DNA of 64,000 nucleotides from Paracoccus sp. PAMC 22219 (GTDB lineage Bacteria > Pseudomonadota > Alphaproteobacteria > Rhodobacterales > Rhodobacteraceae). The stretch lies in NCBI RefSeq assembly GCF_000787695.1, contig NZ_BBPH01000002.1, positions 1 to 64,000 of the forward strand, in the 5' to 3' direction. Position 1 is the first letter of the stretch; the number at the start of each line of letters is the position of its first letter. Of this stretch, positions 42,448-61,926 are shown one piece after another. The notes below the pieces were generated by a model. It saw nothing but the letters and a program-made list of their open reading frames with translations. It was not told where the DNA came from and ran no database searches. A program made the translations under genes and the position numbers.

Positions 42448-43235
42448 GCATCGGCTCCCGTCTGCAACCTGCGTGCCTTAAGACTTACCGTGATATCTCT
42501 TAATCCGCCACTGCTTGAAGACGAACCGGACGTGCGCAGCACATTTTACTGCTTTTGATTGGCAGGATCATGGGCGAGTGCTGATGCTGCTTGTTCCGCA
42601 CCGCTCGCCAAAGTGGAACGGCCCCTACTCGCATTGTGCAGGAGTGATCGCCGAGCCCGCCAACCAGATCGCCCTTGAGATCAACATCTCCTCCGGTGAC
42701 CGACCACTAGGGAATGCACATATATAACTGCGGTTCTAGAAGAGGAACGGAACGGTCTGTAGCCAGCGCTTCCCGATCTGGTGCGCGGCAGAAGAACGCG
42801 CACGTTGGGAGGATAAGCAGGCGTGTCTAGTGATGATTGCAAAGCCTTCTCCCTGAAGGATCAGAATGCTGCCCATCTTGGGTCCTTCCGGTGCAGTGTC
42901 ATATGCGGCGGGCTTAGGCGCGTAAGAGCTTCAGTTGCAGAGAAAATAACGGGGTTCGCACCTGAAGTTCGCGGTTCGCGCTTCTCACACGCACACGAAA
43001 CTAGGCGTCGCGCCGTGACTGGAACCGTCCCCACCGTGACCAGCAGGGCCTCTCTTCTTTTCGGCACGCAGGCAGATCTGACGAAGCGATGATGGAGATG
43101 GTGTGGTCAAAAAGGATCGCAAGCGAGATACATCGTTGGCAGCGTTGCAATGAGTGTGCGTCCGTTCTCTTTCACCCAACGCGGCTATGCATGACTGTTC
43201 GACTCGGGCTGAGGACCTCTGGCACCTTTTGGGTC
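42448..43235. other. Intergenic region with a dispersed repeat
   Basis: About 790 bases without a supported gene. It contains one copy of a 47-base repeat (42880-42926) that recurs at 56792. The open frames here have no recognisable family. It may be a relic of the same kind of mobile element as at 54-60 kb. Confidence 0.4.
42880..42926. repeat. Dispersed repeat, copy A
   Basis: This 47-base stretch begins GGGTCCTTCC and ends GGCTTAGGCGCGTAAG. It matches 56792-56838 at 41 of 47 positions, and weaker likeness continues to a shared CGGGGTT about 30 bases on. Read on the minus strand, copy B includes the stop of a frame ending LLELENLRA. Confidence 0.6.
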
Positions 43236-52705: not shown

Positions 52706-53014
52706 ATGTTCGTCAGAAAGTCGTCCCGTCCCCGCACCGTCAAAATCGATGACGGCAACATCCTGAGCGTCGCGGATCTGCCTGATGCAGACACGCGCTG
52801 GGTGGCATCGCGAAAGCAGACGGTGGTTCTCGCCGTCTCGCATGGCCTTATCAGCCGGGAGGATGCACTGAAGCGCTACAGACTTTCGGACGATGAGTTC
52901 AGCTCTTGGTGCCGCGCAAGTGCCGCCCATGGCAAGGTCGCCCTGACAGTGACCGCCCTGCAGAAACATCGGCAGCCGCGGAATGACACTGCGGCAGACA
53001 TTTCTTCAGAGTAG
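52706..53014 (+). CDS. DUF1153/SciP-like protein
   Basis: A 102-residue protein of the DUF1153 family (PF06627), which includes SciP, an alphaproteobacterial cell-cycle regulator that restrains CtrA. The helix-turn-helix part reads DTRWVASRKQTVVLAVSHGLISREDALKRYRLSDDEFSSWCRA, with the family's LADLPDADT-like lead. SciP is normally a single-copy core gene; this copy lies in an accessory stretch and has a changed N-terminus, so it is probably a paralogue. Confidence 0.7.
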   Translation: MFVRKSSRPRTVKIDDGNILSVADLPDADTRWVASRKQTVVLAVSHGLISREDALKRYRLSDDEFSSWCRASAAHGKVALTVTALQKHRQPRNDTAADISSE

Positions 53015-53049
53015 TCACCTTTAGCAGGAATTCGTGGGTATCTGGCTCG

Positions 53050-54049
53050 TTATCCGCTTACGGTTACGAAGATCAGGGCCATACCCAGCACCAATCCTGC
53101 AACCCTGTACATCGGCCTCTGCAGGCCGATGATCGCGTAGGAGATGGCGATGCACCCGCCGCCCACCAGACCGGCGGAAAGCAGTGCGGCGCCCGGGGCC
53201 TCAGCCAGTCGGATCAGGTCCGGGCGCGCGATCATGCCGAGGGGGATCAGATAGAGCCCCACACCGAGTGCCATTGCGGTCATGGCCACACGCAGCCAGT
53301 TCTCCTGCGCCATTCCGGCCGCAATGAAGACAGCGCTGCAGACGGGAGGGGTGATGGTCGAGAGAAGCGCGAACCAGAACACGAAGAGATGCGCCTGCAG
53401 CGGCTCGAGACCAAGCGTGGTCAGCGCCGGCCCTGCGACCGAGACGCAGATCACGTAGGCCGCAGTCGTCGGCACCTCCATGCCCAGAACGAGACAGGCA
53501 AGTGCGGTCAACAGAAGTGACGGCCACAGACCACCGTTCGACGCCGACAGGATCAACGAGGTGATCTTGACCCCAAAACCGGTGATGGCAAGCACACCCA
53601 AGATAATCGAGGCGCATAGGATGATAGCCGCGATGAGCGACACCTGTCGCGCGGCACCGGCCAGCACCACCTCGGCCCGGCCCGCCGCACGGCGCAGCGA
53701 CGGAATGGAAAACAGCGCCCGGATTTCCTCAAACTGCGGTGCGGTCCGGCCTTCAAAGGCGCCGTTTCCGGCTTGCGCATCCGCACCCTGTGACGGAAGC
53801 GCGGTGAAGACATAGTCGGCTCCACGCGCGCGGACTTCCATGACGTTCTGCACCGACCCCTGGCTTTCCTCGACCGTCATTACCAGCTGACCATCTTAAG
53901 CGGCCTTGATGCCCTCGGCCAGTTCGACGCCATCTGGCAATATGACGTTCCGGTTTTGGCCGATTTGTAAGTTTGCCGCGTCTCCGCCTGCGCCGCCCCT
54001 GCCGCCAGCAGCAGCCCCCAACAAGTACAGCCCATGTCCAATGTCGCAT
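53050..54049 (-). pseudogene. TAXI-type TRAP binding protein fused by deletion to a TRAP permease tail
   Basis: The frame at 53880-53050 begins with TAXI receptor sequence (MTVEESQGSVQNVMEV, GADYVFTALPS, RTAPQFEEIRALFSIPSL). After about residue 72 it becomes the C-terminal membrane part of a fused TRAP permease (VLGMEVPTTAAYVICVSVAGPAL, and so on). Upstream to the ATG at 54049 the receptor's signal peptide and first helix can be read only with frame changes, and a TAA stands before DGQLVM. So there are two or more frameshifts, a stop, and a large deletion joining receptor and permease. Confidence 0.75.
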
Positions 54050-54149
54050 TTCATTCCCCTTCGTTGTCAGACGCGCAATGAACGGGGAGGGAGAAACGGG
54101 TGTCATGGTCGGAGTCTTTGCCGCGCCTAGCCTAACCTGCCCAAACAAC

Positions 54150-54202
54150 GGAAAGGCGCCAGACTCACTCGCCGCTTCTCAGGAAGTCAGCCGGCGCCTT
54201 CC
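54150..54202. repeat. Inverted repeat before the 54-60 kb element
   Basis: GGAAAGGCGCC at 54150 faces GGCGCCTTCC ending at 54202, with one extra A in the first arm and a spacer of about 32 bases. GGTTTTTCTT follows at 54210, so it could act as a terminator on the plus strand or mark an element end. Just upstream of the unknown gene at 54338. Confidence 0.45.
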
Positions 54203-54337
54203 GATAGCCGGTTTTTCTTAGTGTGCGGTTTCCGATGCCAAGCTTACTTTCACAACGCCATAGCCGTAGCTCTTATTGCTTGCGCCGCTCTTAAGGCCTT
54301 TGATGTCCTTGACGTCCACCTGCTCAAATCATGCCAA

Positions 54338-55036
54338 ATGTCCACAAGGCCAAAGAAGCAAGGATACCTCGTGACCCTCTTGGAACGAAAAGAAGCTGTT
54401 GAATACGCTATCCAGGAGCTGGCGGAGATCTTGAGCTCCGAAGCTATTCGGGGTGCGCTAACTCCGGAAGAAAGGAAATGTGATGAGCATTGTGAAGCGC
54501 TTTGGAAGCTACGTAAAGACAGCGCGACAGCAAGACACTTCGCAACTCTATCCGGCTTGGATCTGATCCAATCACAGAGCATCATTGCAAGGCCGACCGA
54601 TAAGGCGTCGGATTTTTCCGGGGACGCGGTCGTCCAAGACCCGTACCTAACGTACGTCCTTCATCTTCTGGCCACTTCCAGCAGCGACGTAACTAGTTTT
54701 GATAGCCTGTTTCGCCATGCAGCTGAACTCTACCGCCACGGTGAATGGCCAGTTCCCATACTGCGGGAGTTTAAAGACGATGTCGATTTTCAAGAGAGAT
54801 CCAGACCATACAAAGACGGGAGGCAGAAAGACGTCGTGGAGCGCGAGTACTTCATCAGCATCGTGATTTATGAGGTTCACCGGATTTTTAATGTGCCGCC
54901 AACACGAAATGATGCTTCGGAACATCGTGACAGTGCCTGCGATATCGTTGCGGAGGCAATGACAGTCCTTCGAACAAGACCAAACAGCTTCCCGGGCGTA
55001 AAGCGAATTTGGATGAAACGGGCTCTTGTGGTCTGA
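54338..55036 (+). CDS. Hypothetical protein, unrecognised
   Basis: A protein of about 232 residues from the ATG at 54338 (MSTRPKKQGYLVTLLERKEAVEYAIQELAEIL); the open frame goes back to 54221. It is helical and charged, with no membrane segment, and has a clearly lower GC content than the flanking genes, which suggests transfer. No family is recognised. It sits at the left end of the element with AlpA and recombinase genes, and could be cargo such as a defence or regulatory protein. Confidence 0.55.
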   Translation: MSTRPKKQGYLVTLLERKEAVEYAIQELAEILSSEAIRGALTPEERKCDEHCEALWKLRKDSATARHFATLSGLDLIQSQSIIARPTDKASDFSGDAVVQDPYLTYVLHLLATSSSDVTSFDSLFRHAAELYRHGEWPVPILREFKDDVDFQERSRPYKDGRQKDVVEREYFISIVIYEVHRIFNVPPTRNDASEHRDSACDIVAEAMTVLRTRPNSFPGVKRIWMKRALVV

Positions 55037-55433
55037 GGAAGTGTATCCCGGATGAAAACTAAGAGGCGGGCCTAGCGTTCAGCGGGTCCAAAGCGTCGTG
55101 CGTGTCGCGAAAAGGGAAGAGGCTTAGTAAGGCCCTTCAGAAACTCACGCTGGGCAACTTCGACTGCACTTCGCGACCGTCAATCCCTCGACCGTCATCG
55201 ATTACGCGTCAATCCAGACGAGGTGCCGGGTCACATCTGGCGTGCGTCCCAGCGCCGCCGCACCCACCCCAGGATAAAGGGCATCTGCTGGAACGCCCGG
55301 TGTACTTTCGGAACGGGGCCGCTCTTGAGATCTTTCGTGGGTCAAAAACTACCCCCCAGTTATTGATCCACGCGTCATCGTGGATCGTTCGTTAGCGTCC
55401 TTCAAGATCGCAACAGATACTTGGAGCACCAAG
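55037..55433. other. Intergenic region before alpA
   Basis: About 400 bases with no gene I can support. The open frame here has low-complexity Pro/Arg content and no family. A site for element integration could lie here but none is visible. Confidence 0.35.
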
Positions 55434-55619
55434 ATGGACGAGGAAATCTGGCGGTTGCCGCGCGTCACCGCGACAATCGGAATGGGACGCAGTTGGGTAT
55501 ACAGAGCTGTGCCGCAGGGGCGGTTTCCGGCTCCTGTGCGTCTTGGCGCCAGGGCAATCGGCTGGAAGCGCAGCGACGTTCAGGCCTGGCTCGACAGCCG
55601 TCAGCGGAGGACGCTGTGA
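55434..55619 (+). CDS. AlpA-family prophage/element regulatory protein
   Basis: A 61-residue winged-helix protein: LPRVTATIGMGRSWVYRAV followed by GRFPAPVRLGARAIGWKRSDVQAWLDSRQ. This is the standard AlpA fold that controls integrase or excision genes in mobile elements. The ATG at 55434 was chosen; the frame is open from 55380. Its stop overlaps the next ATG by one base (TGATG). Confidence 0.85.
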   Translation: MDEEIWRLPRVTATIGMGRSWVYRAVPQGRFPAPVRLGARAIGWKRSDVQAWLDSRQRRTL

Positions 55620-56725
55620 TGAAACACCAATTGCACCCCGCAGCCCTTTCTGCAGAGAATATCGCTATAGGTGGCGACGCAACGAGACCTGCCAATTACG
55701 AGAAGCAATCTTCAGACGCGCAGAAGCCGATCATTCAGATGCCGGCGGAAACGCGGAAGCGGCGCACGATACCCGGCAACACTCCCGCGACTGATTGGGC
55801 CCATGCTGTGGCGATGCTGCGCTCCACACAGCGGATGGTCCTGGTTGTCGTTGCGCGTCACTCAGACCGATATGGCGTCAGCTGGTGTAATCAGAAGACG
55901 CTTGCGGTCGAGTCAGGCTGCAGCGACCGTACGGTGCGTCGGCTACTCAAGGAGTTTGAAGTTCGCGGCCTCATTCGCCGCGTAGGCCGCTTGGGCCTGC
56001 ATGGCGCACAGGTTTCGGACCTAGTCATAATCGTCGGTTGGCCGGAACGGACACTCATCCCCGATACTGGCCATCCGAACCCCAGAATCGCATTGAAGGA
56101 GACGCGCGAGACGCGGTTTCTATGGTCCGTCAACCGTGCTCAGGTGCGGACACCCTTTCCGGGGGGTGCGGAAATAGCGCCCGACCAGAACAAAGACACT
56201 ATAAATACTACTACTACGGCACAGCTCGAAGAGATCCTGACAACCTGCTTCGAGGCGCTTGGGGCATTGGCTACTGCAGAGAACAGGCAAAACCTGGCGG
56301 ACGATCTTCCAACTCTACAATCGTGGCTCAACAGAGGCATTGACCTGCATCTCCACATCCTTCCAGTGCTTTCTGAGAAGGCGAAGGGCAGCGGAAAGAT
56401 TCCACTCCTACGCACTTGGCGGTACTTTGAGGTTCCGATCGGTAAAGCTGTGAACAAGATGCCGGTGAAATCGAAGTGCGCGTCGACCAGGACCAGGAGC
56501 GTACAGCTCAAAGCAGAGGTTCCGAAGAAGGCAGGGGCTCCTGAGACGGTAATCGACAAGCCTGATGTGCAGCTCCCGGTGGTCAAGCCTTCCTCAAAGC
56601 GGGTACCAGCTGATCAGCTGCAGATCCCCTACCCTGCTAATGGAAAGGAGCAGACCGAATTAACGATGGCAATCGCTGCGCTCGCCGCAAGCCGCAAATT
56701 ACGCTTTCACAAAGGGGAGGAGTAG
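55619..56725 (+). CDS. Helix-turn-helix protein, possible element replication initiator
   Basis: A 368-residue protein. After a variable start, residues about 65-140 read AHAVAMLRSTQRMVLVVVARHSDRYGVSWCNQKTLAVESGCSDRTVRRLLKEFEVRGLIRRVGR, a winged helix like HTH_36 or plasmid/phage replication proteins. The rest is polar, with a Lys/Pro-rich tail. It is translationally coupled to alpA, as is common in integrative elements, and may start element replication or regulate it. Confidence 0.65.
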   Translation: MKHQLHPAALSAENIAIGGDATRPANYEKQSSDAQKPIIQMPAETRKRRTIPGNTPATDWAHAVAMLRSTQRMVLVVVARHSDRYGVSWCNQKTLAVESGCSDRTVRRLLKEFEVRGLIRRVGRLGLHGAQVSDLVIIVGWPERTLIPDTGHPNPRIALKETRETRFLWSVNRAQVRTPFPGGAEIAPDQNKDTINTTTTAQLEEILTTCFEALGALATAENRQNLADDLPTLQSWLNRGIDLHLHILPVLSEKAKGSGKIPLLRTWRYFEVPIGKAVNKMPVKSKCASTRTRSVQLKAEVPKKAGAPETVIDKPDVQLPVVKPSSKRVPADQLQIPYPANGKEQTELTMAIAALAASRKLRFHKGEE

Positions 56726-57069
56726 CTCGTGCGCATCATAGTTCCGACGTTGGAAACGGTGCGTATTCGACAAGCAACGTGCCCCCTTCTCGGGTCCTTC
56801 CTGCGCAGTTTCGTATGCGGAGGGCTTAGGCGCGCAAGTTTTCCAGTTCCAGCAAATACGTCGGGGTTTCCACTTGGATGGTGGTTTCCACGGTGGAGGT
56901 TTCCACTGGCACAGGCGTTTCCAATCGGCGGGTTTCCATTCCGTTTCGAGTTCCCGCCTCCACACCTCGCCCTTGTACCAGAACTGGCTCTGGCAGCCGC
57001 TGGCTTGTCTCACCCTGAGCGAGGACGTGTGAAATGACCCGTGGCTCTAACCCCCTTCCCGCTGGCCGT
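56726..57069. other. Region with repeat copy B and a periodic minus-strand frame
   Basis: About 340 bases between the HTH gene and the recombinase cassette. On the minus strand, 56826 to about 57010 reads with Glu-Thr pairs spaced 5 and 6 residues (METRRLETPVPVETSTVET and so on), ending YLLELENLRA at the repeat. This looks like a real C-terminus of an otherwise lost gene. No intact gene is supported. Confidence 0.4.
56792..56838. repeat. Dispersed repeat, copy B
   Basis: Matches 42880-42926 at 41 of 47 bases. It overlaps the 3' end of the minus-strand frame ending LENLRA and its stop codon at 56826-56828, so the repeat may be the downstream flank of a gene family found on mobile elements. 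Confidence 0.6.
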
Positions 57070-57216
57070 ATGACCGCGCCCGAGCGCCGGCGCGAACTTT
57101 GCGCTCTCCTCAGTCTTGGGCTTGTGCGGCTCCGCATGCGCAACAGCGACTTTACGGAGACAGTTCGCAACGGCGTCGATCCAGCGACTACACATCCGTT
57201 CCGGACAGAGCGGTAG
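57070..57216 (+). CDS. Small protein of the recombinase cassette
   Basis: A 48-residue frame, MTAPERRRELCALLSLGLVRLRMRN and so on. Short Arg-rich proteins with this start commonly precede DUF2924 genes in alphaproteobacterial recombinase cassettes, as far as I recall. It ends 30 bases before the DUF2924 gene. Function unknown. Confidence 0.5.
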   Translation: MTAPERRRELCALLSLGLVRLRMRNSDFTETVRNGVDPATTHPFRTER

Positions 57217-57246
57217 TGGTGGGCAACAAAAGCAGAGAAGAAGCGA

Positions 57247-57699
57247 ATGACAAAGCTTGATCCCATCCCCGCACGCCTGGCGGCCCTCAAGGACACCCCT
57301 ACGGTCGACCTGAAGAAGCAGTGGCGCGAGCTGTTCGACAGCGCGCCGCCGCCCTACAACCGCCGCTATCTGGAAAGCCGACTGGCCTACCGCATTCAGG
57401 AGCTCGCCTATGGCGGCTTGAAGTCTGAGACGATCAGCCGTCTGGGGCGCCTGGGCGATGAGCTGGACGGCGGTGACCGCAAGACGAGCCGCATCCGCAC
57501 CGACCTCATGCCCATTGCCGGAACGCGGCTGATCCGCGAGTGGCAGGGCACCGAGCAAGTCGTGACTGTCACCTTGAACGGCTTTGAATGGCAGGGTCGC
57601 CCCTACAAGTCGATCTCCGCCCTCGCCCGCGCAATCACCGGCACGCAGTGGAATGGCTGGGTATTCTTCGGCCTAAAGAACCACAGGAGCCGGGCATGA
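57247..57699 (+). CDS. DUF2924 domain-containing protein
   Basis: A 150-residue protein of the DUF2924 family: LKKQWRELFDSAPPPYNRRYLESRLAYRIQELAYGGL, then a basic C-terminal part with GTRLIREWQGTEQVVTVTLNGFEWQGRPYKSISALARAITGTQWNGWVFFGL. That part is a RAMA-like or DNA-binding-like module. It almost always precedes a large serine recombinase and probably aids it. Coupled to the recombinase by ATGA. AGAGAAGAAGCGA precedes the ATG. Confidence 0.88.
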   Translation: MTKLDPIPARLAALKDTPTVDLKKQWRELFDSAPPPYNRRYLESRLAYRIQELAYGGLKSETISRLGRLGDELDGGDRKTSRIRTDLMPIAGTRLIREWQGTEQVVTVTLNGFEWQGRPYKSISALARAITGTQWNGWVFFGLKNHRSRA

Positions 57700-59018
57700 C
57701 CAAGCCAGTTGTCAGGAAGCTCCGCTGCGGTGTCTACACCCGCAAGTCTTCCGAGGAAGGACTAGAGCAGGAGTTCAATTCGCTGCACGCCCAGCGCGAA
57801 GCCTGCGAGGCCTATATCGCCTCGCAGCGATCCGAGGGCTGGGTGCTGGTCCGCGACCAGTATGATGATGGTGGCATCTCCGGCGGCACGCTGGTGCGAC
57901 CTGCCCTGCAACGCCTCCTAGCCGACATCGATGACGGGTTGGTGGACGTGGTGGTGGTCTACAAGATCGACCGGCTTTCGCGCTCGCTAATGGACTTCTC
58001 GAAGCTGGTGGAGGTGTTCGACAGGAACGGCGTGACCTTCGTCAGCGTCACCCAATCCTTCAACACCACCACGTCCATGGGGCGGCTGACTCTGAACATT
58101 CTGCTGTCCTTCGCCCAGTTCGAGCGTGAGGTGACGGCGGAGCGCATCCGAGACAAGTTCCGCGCCTCCCGCATGAAGGGGATGTGGATGGGGGGCAACA
58201 CCCCGCTGGGCTATGAGGTCAGGGACCGCAAGCTGGTCGTCCGCAAGGAGGATGCCGAGCATGTGCGGTGGATCTTCACCCGCTTCCTTGAACTTGGCTC
58301 GGCGACCGAGCTGGCACGTGATGTCGACAGCCGCAATATCAGGACTTCCCGTGGCAACCGGATCGACAAGAAGGCCATCTACCGGATCCTCAACAATCGG
58401 GTCTATCTCGGTGATGCCGTGCACAAGGGTGAAAGCTATCCTGGCGAGCACGTGGCGATCATCGACCAAAGCCTCTGGGACAAGGTCCATACCATCCTCA
58501 CCGAGAGCCCGCGCATCCGTGCTGCCCGCACCCGGGCGCAGACGCCGGCGCTGCTAAAGGGATTGATCTTCGGCCCTGACGGCGCCGCCTTCTCCCCCAG
58601 CCACACCCGCAAGGGCGGCAGGCTCTACCGCTACTACGTCAGTCAGACGGTGCTGAAGCACGGTGCAGGCGCTTGCCCTGTCGGCCGCGTGCCTGCCGGG
58701 GAGATCGAGGCGGCCGTCATCGACCAGCTACGTGCCGTGTTCCGCCAGCCCGAGATCGTCGCCGGCACCTGGAAGGCTGCCCAGGAGCAGACGCCGGCGC
58801 AGGACCGAAGCATCAGCGAGCGTGACGTCCGGGAGGCGCTGTATCAGCTTGATCCGCTTTGGGACGAACTCTTCCCGGCTGAGCAGGCCCGTATCGCGGC
58901 GCTTCTCGTCGAGCGGATCGATATCGGCCTCGCAGGGCTGAACGTCCGACTGCGCATTGATGGGCTGGGCGGCCTCGCAGATGAAATGCGCGCGGGGAAA
59001 TCGGAGCAGGCAGCATGA
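57696..59018 (+). CDS. Serine recombinase (resolvase/recombinase family)
   Basis: A 440-residue site-specific recombinase. The resolvase domain starts CGVYTRKSSEEG with the catalytic Ser near residue 18, and continues DGGISGGTLVRPALQRLL, VYKIDRLSRSL and QFEREVTAERI. A recombinase domain (TPLGYEVRD...) and a zinc ribbon follow (residues about 280-340). The ribbon reads LKGLIFGPDGAAFSPSHTRKG, without the usual Cys pair at its start. It is somewhat shorter than many relatives. It probably moves the surrounding element. The ATGA overlaps on both sides couple it to DUF2924 and the next gene. Confidence 0.88.
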   Translation: MTKPVVRKLRCGVYTRKSSEEGLEQEFNSLHAQREACEAYIASQRSEGWVLVRDQYDDGGISGGTLVRPALQRLLADIDDGLVDVVVVYKIDRLSRSLMDFSKLVEVFDRNGVTFVSVTQSFNTTTSMGRLTLNILLSFAQFEREVTAERIRDKFRASRMKGMWMGGNTPLGYEVRDRKLVVRKEDAEHVRWIFTRFLELGSATELARDVDSRNIRTSRGNRIDKKAIYRILNNRVYLGDAVHKGESYPGEHVAIIDQSLWDKVHTILTESPRIRAARTRAQTPALLKGLIFGPDGAAFSPSHTRKGGRLYRYYVSQTVLKHGAGACPVGRVPAGEIEAAVIDQLRAVFRQPEIVAGTWKAAQEQTPAQDRSISERDVREALYQLDPLWDELFPAEQARIAALLVERIDIGLAGLNVRLRIDGLGGLADEMRAGKSEQAA

Positions 59019-59410
59019 ACCAGATCGCGCCGATCCAGGACGTTGTCGCCCTGCATGTTCCGTTCCGCGTGGTAAAGCGCGGCGGGCGCAAGGAGATCCG
59101 GCCGCCGGAGGGGGTCCCTCAGACGCGCAGAAGCGATAGCACCCTGGTCAAGGCGCTGGGCCGCGCCTTCCGCTGGAAGCGCCTGCTTGAGAGCGGTGAC
59201 TTCGCCACGATAGGCGAGTTGGCCGAGCATGAGCGCATCGCCCATTCGTACATGACCCGGGTGCTGCGGCTCACGCTGCTTGCCCCTGATCTCGTCGAGG
59301 CGATCCTCGATGGCACTCAGGGTCCAGGGATGACCCTGCCCCGGCTGCTGGAGCCGTTTCCATCAGACTGGGCCGCCCAGCGAACACACTGGCCTGCAGC
59401 GCAGCAGTAG
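59015..59410 (+). CDS. Recombinase-cassette accessory protein
   Basis: A 131-residue protein with a basic middle (VVKRGGRKEIRPPEGVP) and a helix-turn-helix-like end (FATIGELAEHERIAHSYMTRVLRLTLLAPDLVEAIL). The recombinase, DUF2924 and a protein of this type occur together in many alphaproteobacteria, and this third member probably binds DNA at the recombination site. Coupled to the recombinase by ATGA. Confidence 0.75.
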   Translation: MNQIAPIQDVVALHVPFRVVKRGGRKEIRPPEGVPQTRRSDSTLVKALGRAFRWKRLLESGDFATIGELAEHERIAHSYMTRVLRLTLLAPDLVEAILDGTQGPGMTLPRLLEPFPSDWAAQRTHWPAAQQ

Positions 59411-59568
59411 CTGCGGCCTCACAGGTTCCCGTCCCCATACCGCCTGACCAGGGATAATCGCCCGCGCAGGTGTCCCCCGATCTTCGAGGATGATCGGCAA
59501 CGCCTTCAGGGCGAACGATGCCGGGCATCCTCCTGGATACCCCGAAACGTCAACAAAGGAGTATGACG

Positions 59569-59877
59569 ATGAACACCTTTCCACCTCTTCCCTGGATGGA
59601 CCCCGAGGCCATGCAGCATATGGTGCAGCAGCAAAATCTGCATCTGTGCGGCTGCCTGACCGTGCTGGCAAGCTACGCCGAACCCGACGGCACGATCGCC
59701 TATCCGAAGGCCGTTAAATGTCTGGAAGCTGCTCCGGAGATGAATGAGCGGAAGGCGAAGACGTCCCTGTCCCGCCTCGTCGAAGCTGGTTGGGTTACCC
59801 AGACAGACGAGGTGGTATCCATCACGGGATATGGGAGCAGCACAGCGCCGGACTACGTCCGCAAGACGCCGGACTGA
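59569..59877 (+). CDS. Small winged-helix-like protein
   Basis: A 102-residue protein starting MNTFPPLPWMDPEAMQHMV. The region AYPKAVKCLEAAPEMNERKAKTSLSRLVEAGWVTQTDEVVSITGYG reads as a winged helix. AAGGAG lies about 10 bases before the ATG at 59569. A strong terminator follows. It may be a regulator of the element or of neighbouring genes. Confidence 0.6.
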   Translation: MNTFPPLPWMDPEAMQHMVQQQNLHLCGCLTVLASYAEPDGTIAYPKAVKCLEAAPEMNERKAKTSLSRLVEAGWVTQTDEVVSITGYGSSTAPDYVRKTPD

Positions 59878-59910
59878 ACGAGGCGCGAAACGTGTCCGCG
59901 TTTAGCCATG

Positions 59911-59934
59911 AAGCCGCGCCTCAGGGCGCGGCTT
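59911..59934 (+). terminator. Rho-independent-type terminator
   Basis: AAGCCGCGCC, TCAG loop, GGCGCGGCTT, then GCTTATTGTG. A perfect ten-base GC-rich stem, 33 bases after the preceding stop. Ends the element's transcript and separates it from the UPF0149 gene. Confidence 0.75.
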
Positions 59935-60017
59935 GCTTATTGTGTCCGTACCCAGTGCTGGATTGTGCCCTGATAACGGGATGGGTATTCAGTGCCTGGA
60001 TATGAGGGAGACCCGCC

Positions 60018-60695
60018 GTGAGCCGTTCAGAAAAGCACCTTGATCATCTCGACGACCTCCTGGCGGCCGTGTCGCAAGAGAACCTTCCGATGACAGTCAG
60101 CGAACTTGATGGCTATGTCACCGGCATCCTTTCCTGCCCCGACCTCATACCGCCCTCGGAATGGCTCCCCCATGTCTGGGGCGAAACCGGCGATGCTGGA
60201 TTCCCTGATCTGGCCACCGCCGAAGCAACGATCTCTGCGGTGATGGCCCACTATAACGCGGTCGCTTCGGATATGGCAAAGACCCCATGGATCGAGCCAA
60301 TCTACGAGGTTGATCCGCACAGTGATGAAACGCTCTGGGAGGTTTGGATCGACGGGTTCACCCGCGCGTTGCGCCTACGCCCCGACACCTGGCAGGCATT
60401 GCTCGAACAGGCTGATGACGAGACCAAGTCGTCCCTGATCTTCCTGATGGCCCTGCAGGACATCAATGAAGAGAAAAGCAAGTTCACCGAAGACGAGATC
60501 GACGCTATTGATCTTGAGGCTCCCGACCTGATCCCGAACTGCATCGCCGCGATATTGCTGGTGTCCCGCCCAGAGATCGTCATGAAGGCCGACAACCTGT
60601 CCCACGCTCCTGTCAGGGGCACCCGTCCGGGCCGCAACGAACTTTGTTCCTGCGGTTCAGGTCGCACTTACCAGCAATGCTGTGGCAAGAGCTGA
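60018..60695 (+). CDS. UPF0149/YecA-family protein with SEC-C metal-binding tail
   Basis: A 225-residue protein with an N-terminal UPF0149 (YgfB/YecA-like) helical domain (LDDLLAAVSQENLPMTVSELDGYVTGIL) and a C-terminal SEC-C zinc motif, GRNELCSCGSGRTYQQCCG. The SEC-C motif links such proteins to SecA or translation-related roles. It starts at GTG (60018) after GGGAGACCC. Single gene. Confidence 0.85.
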   Translation: MSRSEKHLDHLDDLLAAVSQENLPMTVSELDGYVTGILSCPDLIPPSEWLPHVWGETGDAGFPDLATAEATISAVMAHYNAVASDMAKTPWIEPIYEVDPHSDETLWEVWIDGFTRALRLRPDTWQALLEQADDETKSSLIFLMALQDINEEKSKFTEDEIDAIDLEAPDLIPNCIAAILLVSRPEIVMKADNLSHAPVRGTRPGRNELCSCGSGRTYQQCCGKS

Positions 60696-60858
60696 TAATG
60701 AGTACACAGTACCTGCCGTACGTCCTGGGGTCTTCCCGCTGGACCGGATCGTCGCGCCACGCCACCACCTACAGAGCGGCACCATTTTCGGCATAATCGT
60801 CTTGCGGTCTTGATCTGTGCTTATTCTCTCGCGCATCCTGCCGGGGGAGGAGAAGCCG

Positions 60859-61926
60859 ATGAACGCCACAACAGAGTTTATGGATCTGCTTCAAGTCAAG
60901 TACCCGATCCTGCAGGCACCGATGGCAGGGGTGGCGACGCCGGCAATGGCAGCAGCCGTCTCGAATGCCGGCGGGCTGGGTGCTTTGGGTCTCTGTGCCG
61001 CGAGTCCGGAGATGGCCCATAAGGCTATCAAGGAGGTGCAGCAACTGACAGCTGCATCCTTCAACGTAAACTTCTTCTGCCACGAAAAACCAGCGCGCGA
61101 TCCCGTCGTCGAGGCGGCTTGGATTGCAAGGGCGGTGCCGTTGTTCGAACGGTTCGAGGCAGAGCCGCCAACGGAACTTCGCGATATCTACAAGAGCTTC
61201 TGCGACACTGACGCCTATCTACATCTCCTACTTGCGCTGCGCCCGCGGGTGGTGAGTTTCCATCTCGGCCTGCCTCGGCCCGACCAGATAGCAGCGCTGC
61301 GTGCGGCCGGGCTGGTTCTGATAGGCAGTGCAACGTCGCCTGCTGAGGCCCGTGCCGTCCAAGCGGCTGGCCTGAATGCCATCGTTGCGCAAGGATGGGA
61401 GGCCGGCGGCCATCGCGGCGTCTTCGATCCAACTGCGCCGGACGCATGCCTCTCAACACGAGACCTGCTGCGCGCGATCCTGGACGAAGTCTCTCTTCCG
61501 ATCATCGCGGCCGGCGGGATCATGGACGGCCGCGACGTTCGCCGGATGCTGGACCATGGTGCGGCTGCAGTGCAGCTGGGCACCGCCTTTATCGGTTGCC
61601 CGGAGAGCGCGGCGGATGAAGGTTACCGTGAGAGACTTGCGCTTGGCGGTGACACGGTGATGACACGTGCAATATCCGGCCGCCCCGCCCGCTGCCTGGG
61701 CAATGCCCTTACCCAGTGGACAGAAGACGCCGAACCTGCAGACATCCCGGGTTATCCCTGCGCCTACGATCTGGCCAAGACGGTCAACACCGTCGCGAAG
61801 GCCAAGGGCGCCACGGCATACGGCGCGCAGTGGGCAGGTTCCCAAGCATCACGTGCGAGAAGCCTTCCGGCAGCTGAGCTGGTGGAGACCTTGGCCACAG
61901 AGATGACGGACCGGGCACAGGCGTAA
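60859..61926 (+). CDS. Nitronate monooxygenase family / 2-nitropropane dioxygenase-like FMN oxidoreductase
   Basis: A 355-residue FMN TIM-barrel. It opens YPILQAPMAGVATPAMAAAVSNAGGLGALG, binds FMN through IVAQGWEAGGHRG (with the active-site His) and AAGGIMDGRDVRRML, and has LGTAFIGCPESAADE and the HPAM-like family order. It may oxidise alkyl nitronates or reduce enoyl or quinone substrates. The ATG at 60859 has GGGGGAGGAG close upstream; the open frame begins 14 codons earlier. A hairpin follows. Confidence 0.86.
   Translation: MNATTEFMDLLQVKYPILQAPMAGVATPAMAAAVSNAGGLGALGLCAASPEMAHKAIKEVQQLTAASFNVNFFCHEKPARDPVVEAAWIARAVPLFERFEAEPPTELRDIYKSFCDTDAYLHLLLALRPRVVSFHLGLPRPDQIAALRAAGLVLIGSATSPAEARAVQAAGLNAIVAQGWEAGGHRGVFDPTAPDACLSTRDLLRAILDEVSLPIIAAGGIMDGRDVRRMLDHGAAAVQLGTAFIGCPESAADEGYRERLALGGDTVMTRAISGRPARCLGNALTQWTEDAEPADIPGYPCAYDLAKTVNTVAKAKGATAYGAQWAGSQASRARSLPAAELVETLATEMTDRAQA

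Follow-up and report, generated by a model that had tools for sequence, protein, structure and literature searches.

The 64,000-nucleotide stretch analysed here (positions 1 to 64,000 of contig NZ_BBPH01000002.1 of Paracoccus sp. PAMC 22219; hereafter the window) contains, at approximately 54110-59940, an element of about 5.8 kb in which eight small genes run in the same direction and are followed by a terminator (Table 1). We find that this element is probably a minimal phage satellite of the cos type, in which a serine-recombinase module replaces the tyrosine integrase. No structural or terminase family is matched by any of its proteins in Pfam, NCBIfam, PADLOC or PHROGs. Judged from sequence, it thus combines features that define satellites: no structural or terminase genes of its own, a packaging site of the kind used by a helper, and a recurrent gene set distinct from prophages.

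Since the element has no particle genes and carries a phage cos site, its transfer most likely needs a helper phage. In the mechanism that we propose, the product of alpA, perhaps together with a 232-aa protein that we call CARGO, would trigger excision by the serine recombinase and its partners (the DUF2924 protein, the recombinase partner HELP and the small protein SMALL). HTHrep, the replication protein, would then copy the excised circle, with concatemers as the probable product. The GGTTTCCAC repeats of the cos site would be bound by the lambda-type terminase of a helper phage, which would cut at the cosN-like core, and the heads of the helper would package several element lengths. On entry into a new cell, the recombinase would integrate the element DNA.

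The cos site and the phage genome ends that identify it

The conserved core of the cos site occupies 56792-56829. The site holds GGGTCCTTCC, then the cosN-like TATGCGGAGGGC (56814-56825), and then four copies of an R-site-like repeat, GGTTTCCA, at 56865, 56883, 56898 and 56931, with no others on either strand of the window. The repeat GTTTCCAC is common to the element and to Rhodobacter capsulatus phages, where three copies match the four GGTTTCCA repeats of the element. We regard it as very highly probable, from these sequence matches, that 56792-56940 is a site of a phage cos family; by analogy, the cut in the window copy would fall after 56819.

The motif is identified as cos because it spans the genome ends of phages of the RcC cluster, for which PMC8601537 reports defined ends with 11-base 5' overhangs, deduced from reads that end at one base. 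Five of the seven R. capsulatus phage record starts examined fall exactly inside the motif: the records of RcDormio, RcKemmy, RcFrancesLouise and RcHotPocket start with GGGGGCGGAAGCGCG, and that of RcBaka with CGGGGCGGAAGCGCG. The other half of the motif, ..ACGCTATGCG, finishes the right ends of RcDormio, RcKemmy and RcFrancesLouise, and among the six right ends examined, the motif's left half is found as ..TACGCTATGCG in RcDormio and RcFrancesLouise and as ..CACGCTATGCG in RcKemmy. Joined, the phage ends read GGTTCTTCC and then ATGCG|GGGGGC, with three GTTTCCAC repeats next. This layout in the phages, a nicking core followed by repeats on the side of the terminase genes, corresponds to the lambda cosN and cosB that PMC6092414 describes. 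The family thus shows both features of a lambda-type cos, phage ends within the core and repeats on the terminase side, and cutting and binding of the Paracoccus copy would follow by comparison.

The motif was initially read as an origin of replication, since various replication genes precede it and its repeats resemble iterons. The phage context and the RcC ends replaced this reading with that of a cos site, which an origin may overlap. A protein-coding reading of the motif on the minus strand was also examined and dropped.

Pattern and model searches extend the family. The 38-base core pattern, with up to three mismatches, finds 21 copies in ten of 125 Paracoccus genomes, and its reversed control finds none. 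In the viral scan, a stricter first pattern gave no matches, while a relaxed exact pattern (spacer N13) is found in at least 120 viral contigs, as against 15 with a spacer one base longer (N14). A model built from the viral copies recovers the site at 56792 (E = 7.2e-10) and a second copy at 42.9 kb in the window (3.4e-9), whereas 30 dinucleotide shuffles of the window gave no match. Because the phage copies were chosen by the Paracoccus core pattern, these scores are not independent as far as the core is concerned, and independent support from the model comes from the alignment outside the core only. The cos site of another Paracoccus genome (G004) gave nothing useful as a query (best E 0.5). 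It was phage-side queries that led to cultured phages, and the weak R. capsulatus matches (E about 2) were confirmed by reading the sequences only. A literature search with the core as letters returned no phage-related title among the matches listed.

In the listed viral contigs, a primase, a RuvC-like gene and a small helix-turn-helix (HTH) gene lie upstream and a ParB/methyltransferase gene lies downstream, as judged from clusters of 78, 47, 70 and 110 frames with one representative each named by PHROGs; an opposite-strand cluster (cluster 0) and single-linkage clusters merged unrelated frames and were not used. A Nu1-like match is present in 22 of the 120 loci listed and a TerL match in 25, all of them downstream of the motif and on its strand, and one or both occur in 28 of the 35 listed loci that extend 5 kb or more to the right of the motif. 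The Acidithiobacillus phage AcaML1 carries a site of the cos family (74.7% identity over 71 bases, E = 3e-3) that precedes methylases, gpNu1 and gpA, and this phage also bears the module of DUF2924 protein, recombinase and HELP. The cos motif can itself serve to locate further satellites and prophage ends in proteobacteria.

Recurrence of the gene set and competing explanations

CARGO is present in nine of 125 Paracoccus genomes, at ten places, and alpA adjoins it at nine of these (the exception is in G115). CARGO, alpA, the DUF2924 gene, the recombinase gene and HELP are found together at eight loci in seven genomes: the window (in genome G000), L027 and L028 (both in G004), L047 (G014), L049 (G026), L179 (G080), L181 (G098) and L182 (G142, also L067). 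In six of the eight loci, all matched genes of the main copy are free of stops, and TerS, TerL and portal proteins find no match (E up to 1e-3) in the eight element stretches. The CARGO proteins of five full-length copies that were aligned are 25-65% identical to that of the window. In L027 and L221 the replication gene differs in kind, with a weak match to replication in PHROGs (E = 0.0013). The module and cos occur with CARGO not detected at L218, L220 and L221, and L227 is interrupted by a contig end.

The copies occupy several neighbourhoods. The element lies upstream of a TRAP-TAXI gene in G000, G080, G124 and probably G108, with a relic there in G081, and a few kilobases from ImuB-like genes in G098 and for the second copy of G004. 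An oxidoreductase/UPF0149 pair flanks the first copy of G004 and that of G081, the oxidoreductase gene alone that of G142, and an SDR gene adjoins in G093. A small integrated element with a recombinase cassette, as proposed in the first-pass annotation, is thus borne out by this patchy distribution in different neighbourhoods, and the same genes are not fixed at this place in all relatives. We also note that in L028 (13599-14872), a second, N-terminally truncated recombinase gene plus HELP (one stop) follows straight after the full element, either as a tandem element or as a scar.

The recombinase module is itself of phage type. Among its best 80 relatives of 573 found in the species genome collection, the DUF2924 protein, recombinase and HELP occur together in 79. 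Such constant company gives the DUF2924 protein and HELP a role that calls for explanation. In AcaML1, gp4, gp3 and gp2 follow the order of the module, with a second HELP-like match at gp1 and no clear match to SMALL; the AcaML1 record names the HELP counterpart 'site specific recombinase small subunit'. The counterparts in Wolbachia phage WO keep this order, and the module is thus one for phage integration. In phage WO, the annotated recombinase frame gp31 (L148, 5962-7506) contains a HELP-like stretch (33.9% identity), so that the two proteins may be fused there.

The occurrence of this module and of cos in the same phage raises the question of whether the element is a defective prophage, that is, an AcaML1-like temperate phage that has lost its late genes and kept its integrase, early genes and cos. 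Clear relics (L212, L214 and L184) and solo cos copies are also in line with such loss. This explanation is nevertheless unlikely. The compact gene order recurs at the eight loci, six of them intact, with CARGO as divergent as described above, and independent decay would not converge on one gene set. Moreover, CARGO is matched in one and alpA in two of the 80 best recombinase relatives, and the head end of the element is therefore not left over from those phages. Loss of late genes from a prophage accounts for the relics and leaves the recurrent compact set unexplained.

It is very unlikely, in turn, that the element is an autonomous serine-recombinase element that moves by other routes (e.g. 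transformation) and carries cos as a functionless fossil. The several insertion neighbourhoods, the negative search for a resident helper in G000 and the persistence of solo cos copies without element genes would all fit such an element. However, the site has kept its repeats intact and built like those of phages whose ends are known, and conservation of an unused site of ~100 bp over such divergence would be improbable. The description of the element as self-moving in the first-pass annotation stands for its excision- and replication-type genes, but most likely not for transfer, as it has no particle genes and carries a phage cos.

CARGO was initially described as a low-GC gene without a family, which agrees with our results: GC is 0.53 at 54001-55000 as against 0.63 and 0.59 in the following kilobases, and the protein has no match above the curated cut-off or at E<0.01 in Pfam, NCBIfam, PADLOC or PHROGs, and none in phage or plasmid collections. 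Gam, the best Pfam match (E = 0.017, below cut-off, for one of eight members), was not used. Its predicted structure is all-helical at moderate confidence (mean pLDDT 75, pTM 0.49, from eight sequences), and the fold has no Foldseek match at E<0.5 in viral or Protein Data Bank (PDB) libraries. A profile of eight members finds CARGO in 25 of 345 Rhodobacteraceae genomes including that of the window, some weakly, and the match in G205 is doubtful as it sits in a 1,893-aa frame.

Twenty CARGO loci from other genera were retrieved. A tyrosine integrase match lies close to CARGO in 15 of them, and directly adjoins CARGO in the 13 loci where a pairwise search also saw CARGO; in the other five no integrase was seen, some of them near contig ends. 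Six of the 20 have alpA and three a primase within the stretch, and none has a cos of the window type. Some show the order integrase, CARGO relative, alpA, and a primase is present in L503 and L509. Because its relatives mostly adjoin a tyrosine integrase, some with alpA or a primase, CARGO looks like a core gene of such elements. Our best guess, by analogy with the gene between int and alpA in PICMI115 (see below), is that CARGO would be needed for excision, and it may have a regulatory role.

Satellites often carry anti-phage genes, and CARGO lies without a family match in low-GC DNA. The proposal that the element is an island centred on this gene as a defence or toxin-like cargo is nonetheless the least likely of those considered: CARGO has no PADLOC match, and cargo genes vary, while alpA beside CARGO at nine of ten Paracoccus places and a close tyrosine integrase at 15 of 20 loci fit a core function. 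The relative in G025 has been counted in favour of a cargo island. It lies with alpA in an island (L180, 7533-17906) that also has several large genes of unknown kind, among them one of 993 aa, and a frame taken here as tyrosine integrase; this may be a defence island.

Repeat words, helper phages and known satellites

Each cos copy has its own repeat word. GGTTTCCA is found in G000, G004, G098, G142, G124 and one of the G081 copies; G014 has GGTTCGCA, as do the solo copies of G000 and G093; GGTGCGCAC belongs to G093 and to the other copy of G081; and a relic in G004 has GGTTACCAC. The word GGCTCGCA is shared in G089 by two element copies and a prophage with TerS and TerL, and occurs in none of 111 IMG/VR copies and none of 18 other aligned Paracoccus copies. 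On contig 19 of this genome (L229, 201-6006), cos at 201 is followed by ParB, TerS and TerL, which are 56, 39 and 60% identical to those of RcOceanus, making L229 a likely helper-type prophage by its genes. Though the sample is small, such a shared word is what one would expect of satellites that match their helper. The RcC large terminase has relatives (E up to 0.001) in 86 of the 125 Paracoccus genomes, so that possible helpers are common in the genus.

The window also holds a solo cos copy, which is probably a relic, the scar of an older satellite. An orthologous solo copy lies beside the SNase gene in G093. ImuB-like genes are located at 39.0-41.4 kb of the window, about 1.6 kb from the solo copy, and G098 and G004 have full elements near their ImuB-like genes. 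Neither the cos site of the element nor the solo copy had been part of the first-pass annotation. In G080, a gene end and cos form two 0.4-kb copies that are 88.7% identical (L215, 5527-5924; L217, 10400-10797).

Several observations weigh against the satellite interpretation. A length of 5.8 kb is little for a satellite. Two of the eight full-set copies, L047 and L049, are broken, and there are also relics (L184, L212 and L214, of which the latter two retain cos, SMALL, HELP and HTH2 without the recombinase); the element family therefore often decays. The attachment (att) sites and the empty site in relatives looked for at the outset did not emerge: direct-repeat searches gave short words only, the best being the 9-mer GCCGCGCCT (0.1 expected by chance by our own estimate), and Paracoccus genomes with the TRAP gene and without CARGO and the motif offer no clean empty site, because homology in them ends near the TRAP start codon. 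The RcC-type large terminase has no match in G000, where no resident helper was therefore found, and none in G004, G080 or G093. The G089 match reflects few independent events, since its two element copies are related, and the second repeat of these copies differs (GGTGCGCA). Finally, not all phage records open at the motif. RcMeacham, which the list of phages in PMC8601537 does not include, has five bases ahead of the start word, and the RcOceanus record starts at its own first gene. The motif is whole near the right end of RcOceanus, RcKai and RcMeacham, so these three records were not opened at cos.

We also put forward, tentatively and at somewhat less than even odds, a wider model. In this model, a Rhodobacteraceae lineage of minimal cos satellites would combine a head like that of the phage-inducible chromosomal minimalist islands (PICMIs), consisting of CARGO, alpA and a replication gene, with a serine module and an AcaML1-like cos. 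The repeat word (GGTTTCCAC, GGTTCGCAC, GGTGCGCAC, GGTTACCAC or GGCTCGCA) would be a readable helper code matched to the small terminase of the helper, and RcC-like phages would package about seven copies of the window element, joined in one concatemer. Seven copies of 5.84 kb make 40.9 kb, as against 41.3-42.1 kb for the RcC records and 37.6 kb for RcOceanus. If the word is such a code, the helper can be predicted from DNA, and for a satellite with a complete, matchable cos it can be predicted among R. capsulatus phages. Such a satellite would also show that the whole integration machine can be swapped, serine for tyrosine, with the rest kept. No phage satellite of Paracoccus or Rhodobacteraceae is named among the papers listed in the literature searches, which is weak evidence of absence.

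A close parallel in organization is with the PICMIs of Vibrionaceae, which integrate next to fis and use virulent helpers (PMC10803314). These often have a gene of unknown kind between int and alpA, which in PICMI115 is needed for excision; PICMI115 is about one-eighth of the helper size and is packaged as eight-copy concatemers of ~49 kb (PMC10803314). Like them, the window element is very small and has alpA, an integrase and a replication gene but no capsid genes, and relatives of CARGO lie directly beside tyrosine integrases, some followed by alpA. Unlike them, it does not have the order int, gene, alpA, primase but CARGO, alpA, HTHrep, cos, serine module; its integrase is the serine module at the other end; its replication gene is not a primase; its cos is identified; and its flanks are TRAP-TAXI and UPF0149, not fis. 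The terms 'cos site' and 'serine' are absent from the main text of PMC10803314.

The element also resembles the cos-type phage-inducible chromosomal islands (PICIs) such as EcCICFT073 (PMC6092414) in having alpA, its own replication gene, no terminase and a helper-like cos. The PICI cos, as described there, is without the cosB of the helper, whereas the window site does have its repeat region, in agreement with a known phage group, and the element has a serine recombinase module and only about 5.8 kb. With P4-like satellites (PMC8628076) it shares an alpA homologue, a cos site and an integrase, but psu, delta, sid, epsilon and alpha are unmatched in the element in Pfam and PHROG scans; a primase lies beside cos in G081, at L226. 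AcaML1 and phage WO have the same order of DUF2924 protein, serine recombinase and HELP, and AcaML1 the cos family too; they differ in being full phages with late genes, and show no CARGO or alpA match in the stretches compared.

Boundaries, genes and flanking DNA

The window lies on contig 264 (86.6 kb) of a genome that comprises 4.0 Mb in 265 contigs. On the left, the homology of the TRAP-TAXI upstream flank ends at 54108 against G080 and G108 and at 54152 against G124. On the right, L027 and the relics L212 and L214 diverge shortly past the conserved terminator, and the UPF0149 side of G081 starts at 59957, which would put the right junction at about 59935-59956. These left and right limits give the extent of the element. 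As to the unique and specific attachment site of Gram-negative PICIs, the element family uses several neighbourhoods across genomes, and no att core emerged from the direct-repeat searches. Rfam gave no match at E up to 1 in 53000-61000.

Table 1. Features of the element and the related solo cos copy (window positions; related loci are the best 80 of 573 recombinase relatives)
Feature	Positions	Strand	Remarks
Left end region	54110..54337		holds weak inverted repeat 54151-54202; left junction probably near 54109
CARGO, 232 aa, family without match	54338..55036	+	alternative upstream start 54221
alpA, excisionase/activator family	55434..55619	+	PF05930 E=8e-14; phrog_66
HTHrep, winged-helix phage-type replication initiation protein	55619..56725	+	HTH_36 3.6e-8; phrog_1032, phrog_270
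cos site	56792..56940	+	between HTHrep and SMALL
SMALL, 60 aa, Arg-rich, recombinase module	57034..57216	+	found in 68/80 related loci
DUF2924 protein, recombinase module	57247..57699	+	PF11149 7.5e-48; 79/80 related loci
Large serine recombinase (integrase/excisase)	57696..59018	+	Resolvase 4.6e-37, Recombinase 4.3e-17, zinc ribbon 9.3e-9
HELP, HTH-like recombinase partner	59015..59410	+	phrog_14161 1.9e-39; 80/80 related loci
HTH2, 104 aa, winged-helix-like, last gene of element	59563..59877	+	
Intrinsic terminator, right end	59911..59934	+	10 pairs; conserved in G004 and G081
Solo cos copy	42875..42985	+	word GGTTCGCAC; between BrkB and SNase genes

Each gene listed in the first-pass annotation is an open frame at its place, and alpA, the replication gene, DUF2924, recombinase and HELP are confirmed by profile matches, which include PHROG matches of HTHrep to replication initiation (E = 2.6e-10) and of the recombinase to integrase (E = 9.1e-108). 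Other details needed adjustment. The inverted repeat is present but weak, with 10-base arms (54151-54160 and 54193-54202) and one mismatch. The terminator called strong has 10 pairs and is conserved in G004 and G081, but terminator-like matches number eight as against a shuffled mean of 6.7. Of the four genes said to be coupled by overlaps, three are, with 4-base overlaps between DUF2924 and recombinase and between recombinase and HELP, while SMALL ends 30 bases ahead of DUF2924 and is uncoupled. The alpA stop (55617-55619) and the HTHrep ATG also have base 55619 in common.

The element is flanked by a truncated TRAP-TAXI/permease gene (53050-53880, minus strand) and a UPF0149/SEC-C gene (60018-60695). 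The latter was set aside as an element gene, being present in many element-free Paracoccus genomes; a UPF0149 relative is listed by PADLOC as candidate PDC-S12. A 1.1-kb gene (L027:12744-13848) in the gap between HTH2 and UPF0149 of G004 and G081, also adjoining the element in G142, was likewise treated as flank, and was called oxidoreductase-like by eye, without a family search. In 53050-54108, a deletion fuses the TRAP-TAXI solute-binding gene (residues 1-62) to the end of the TRAP permease gene; the two parts are about 1.7-2.1 kb apart in G036, G017 and G080.

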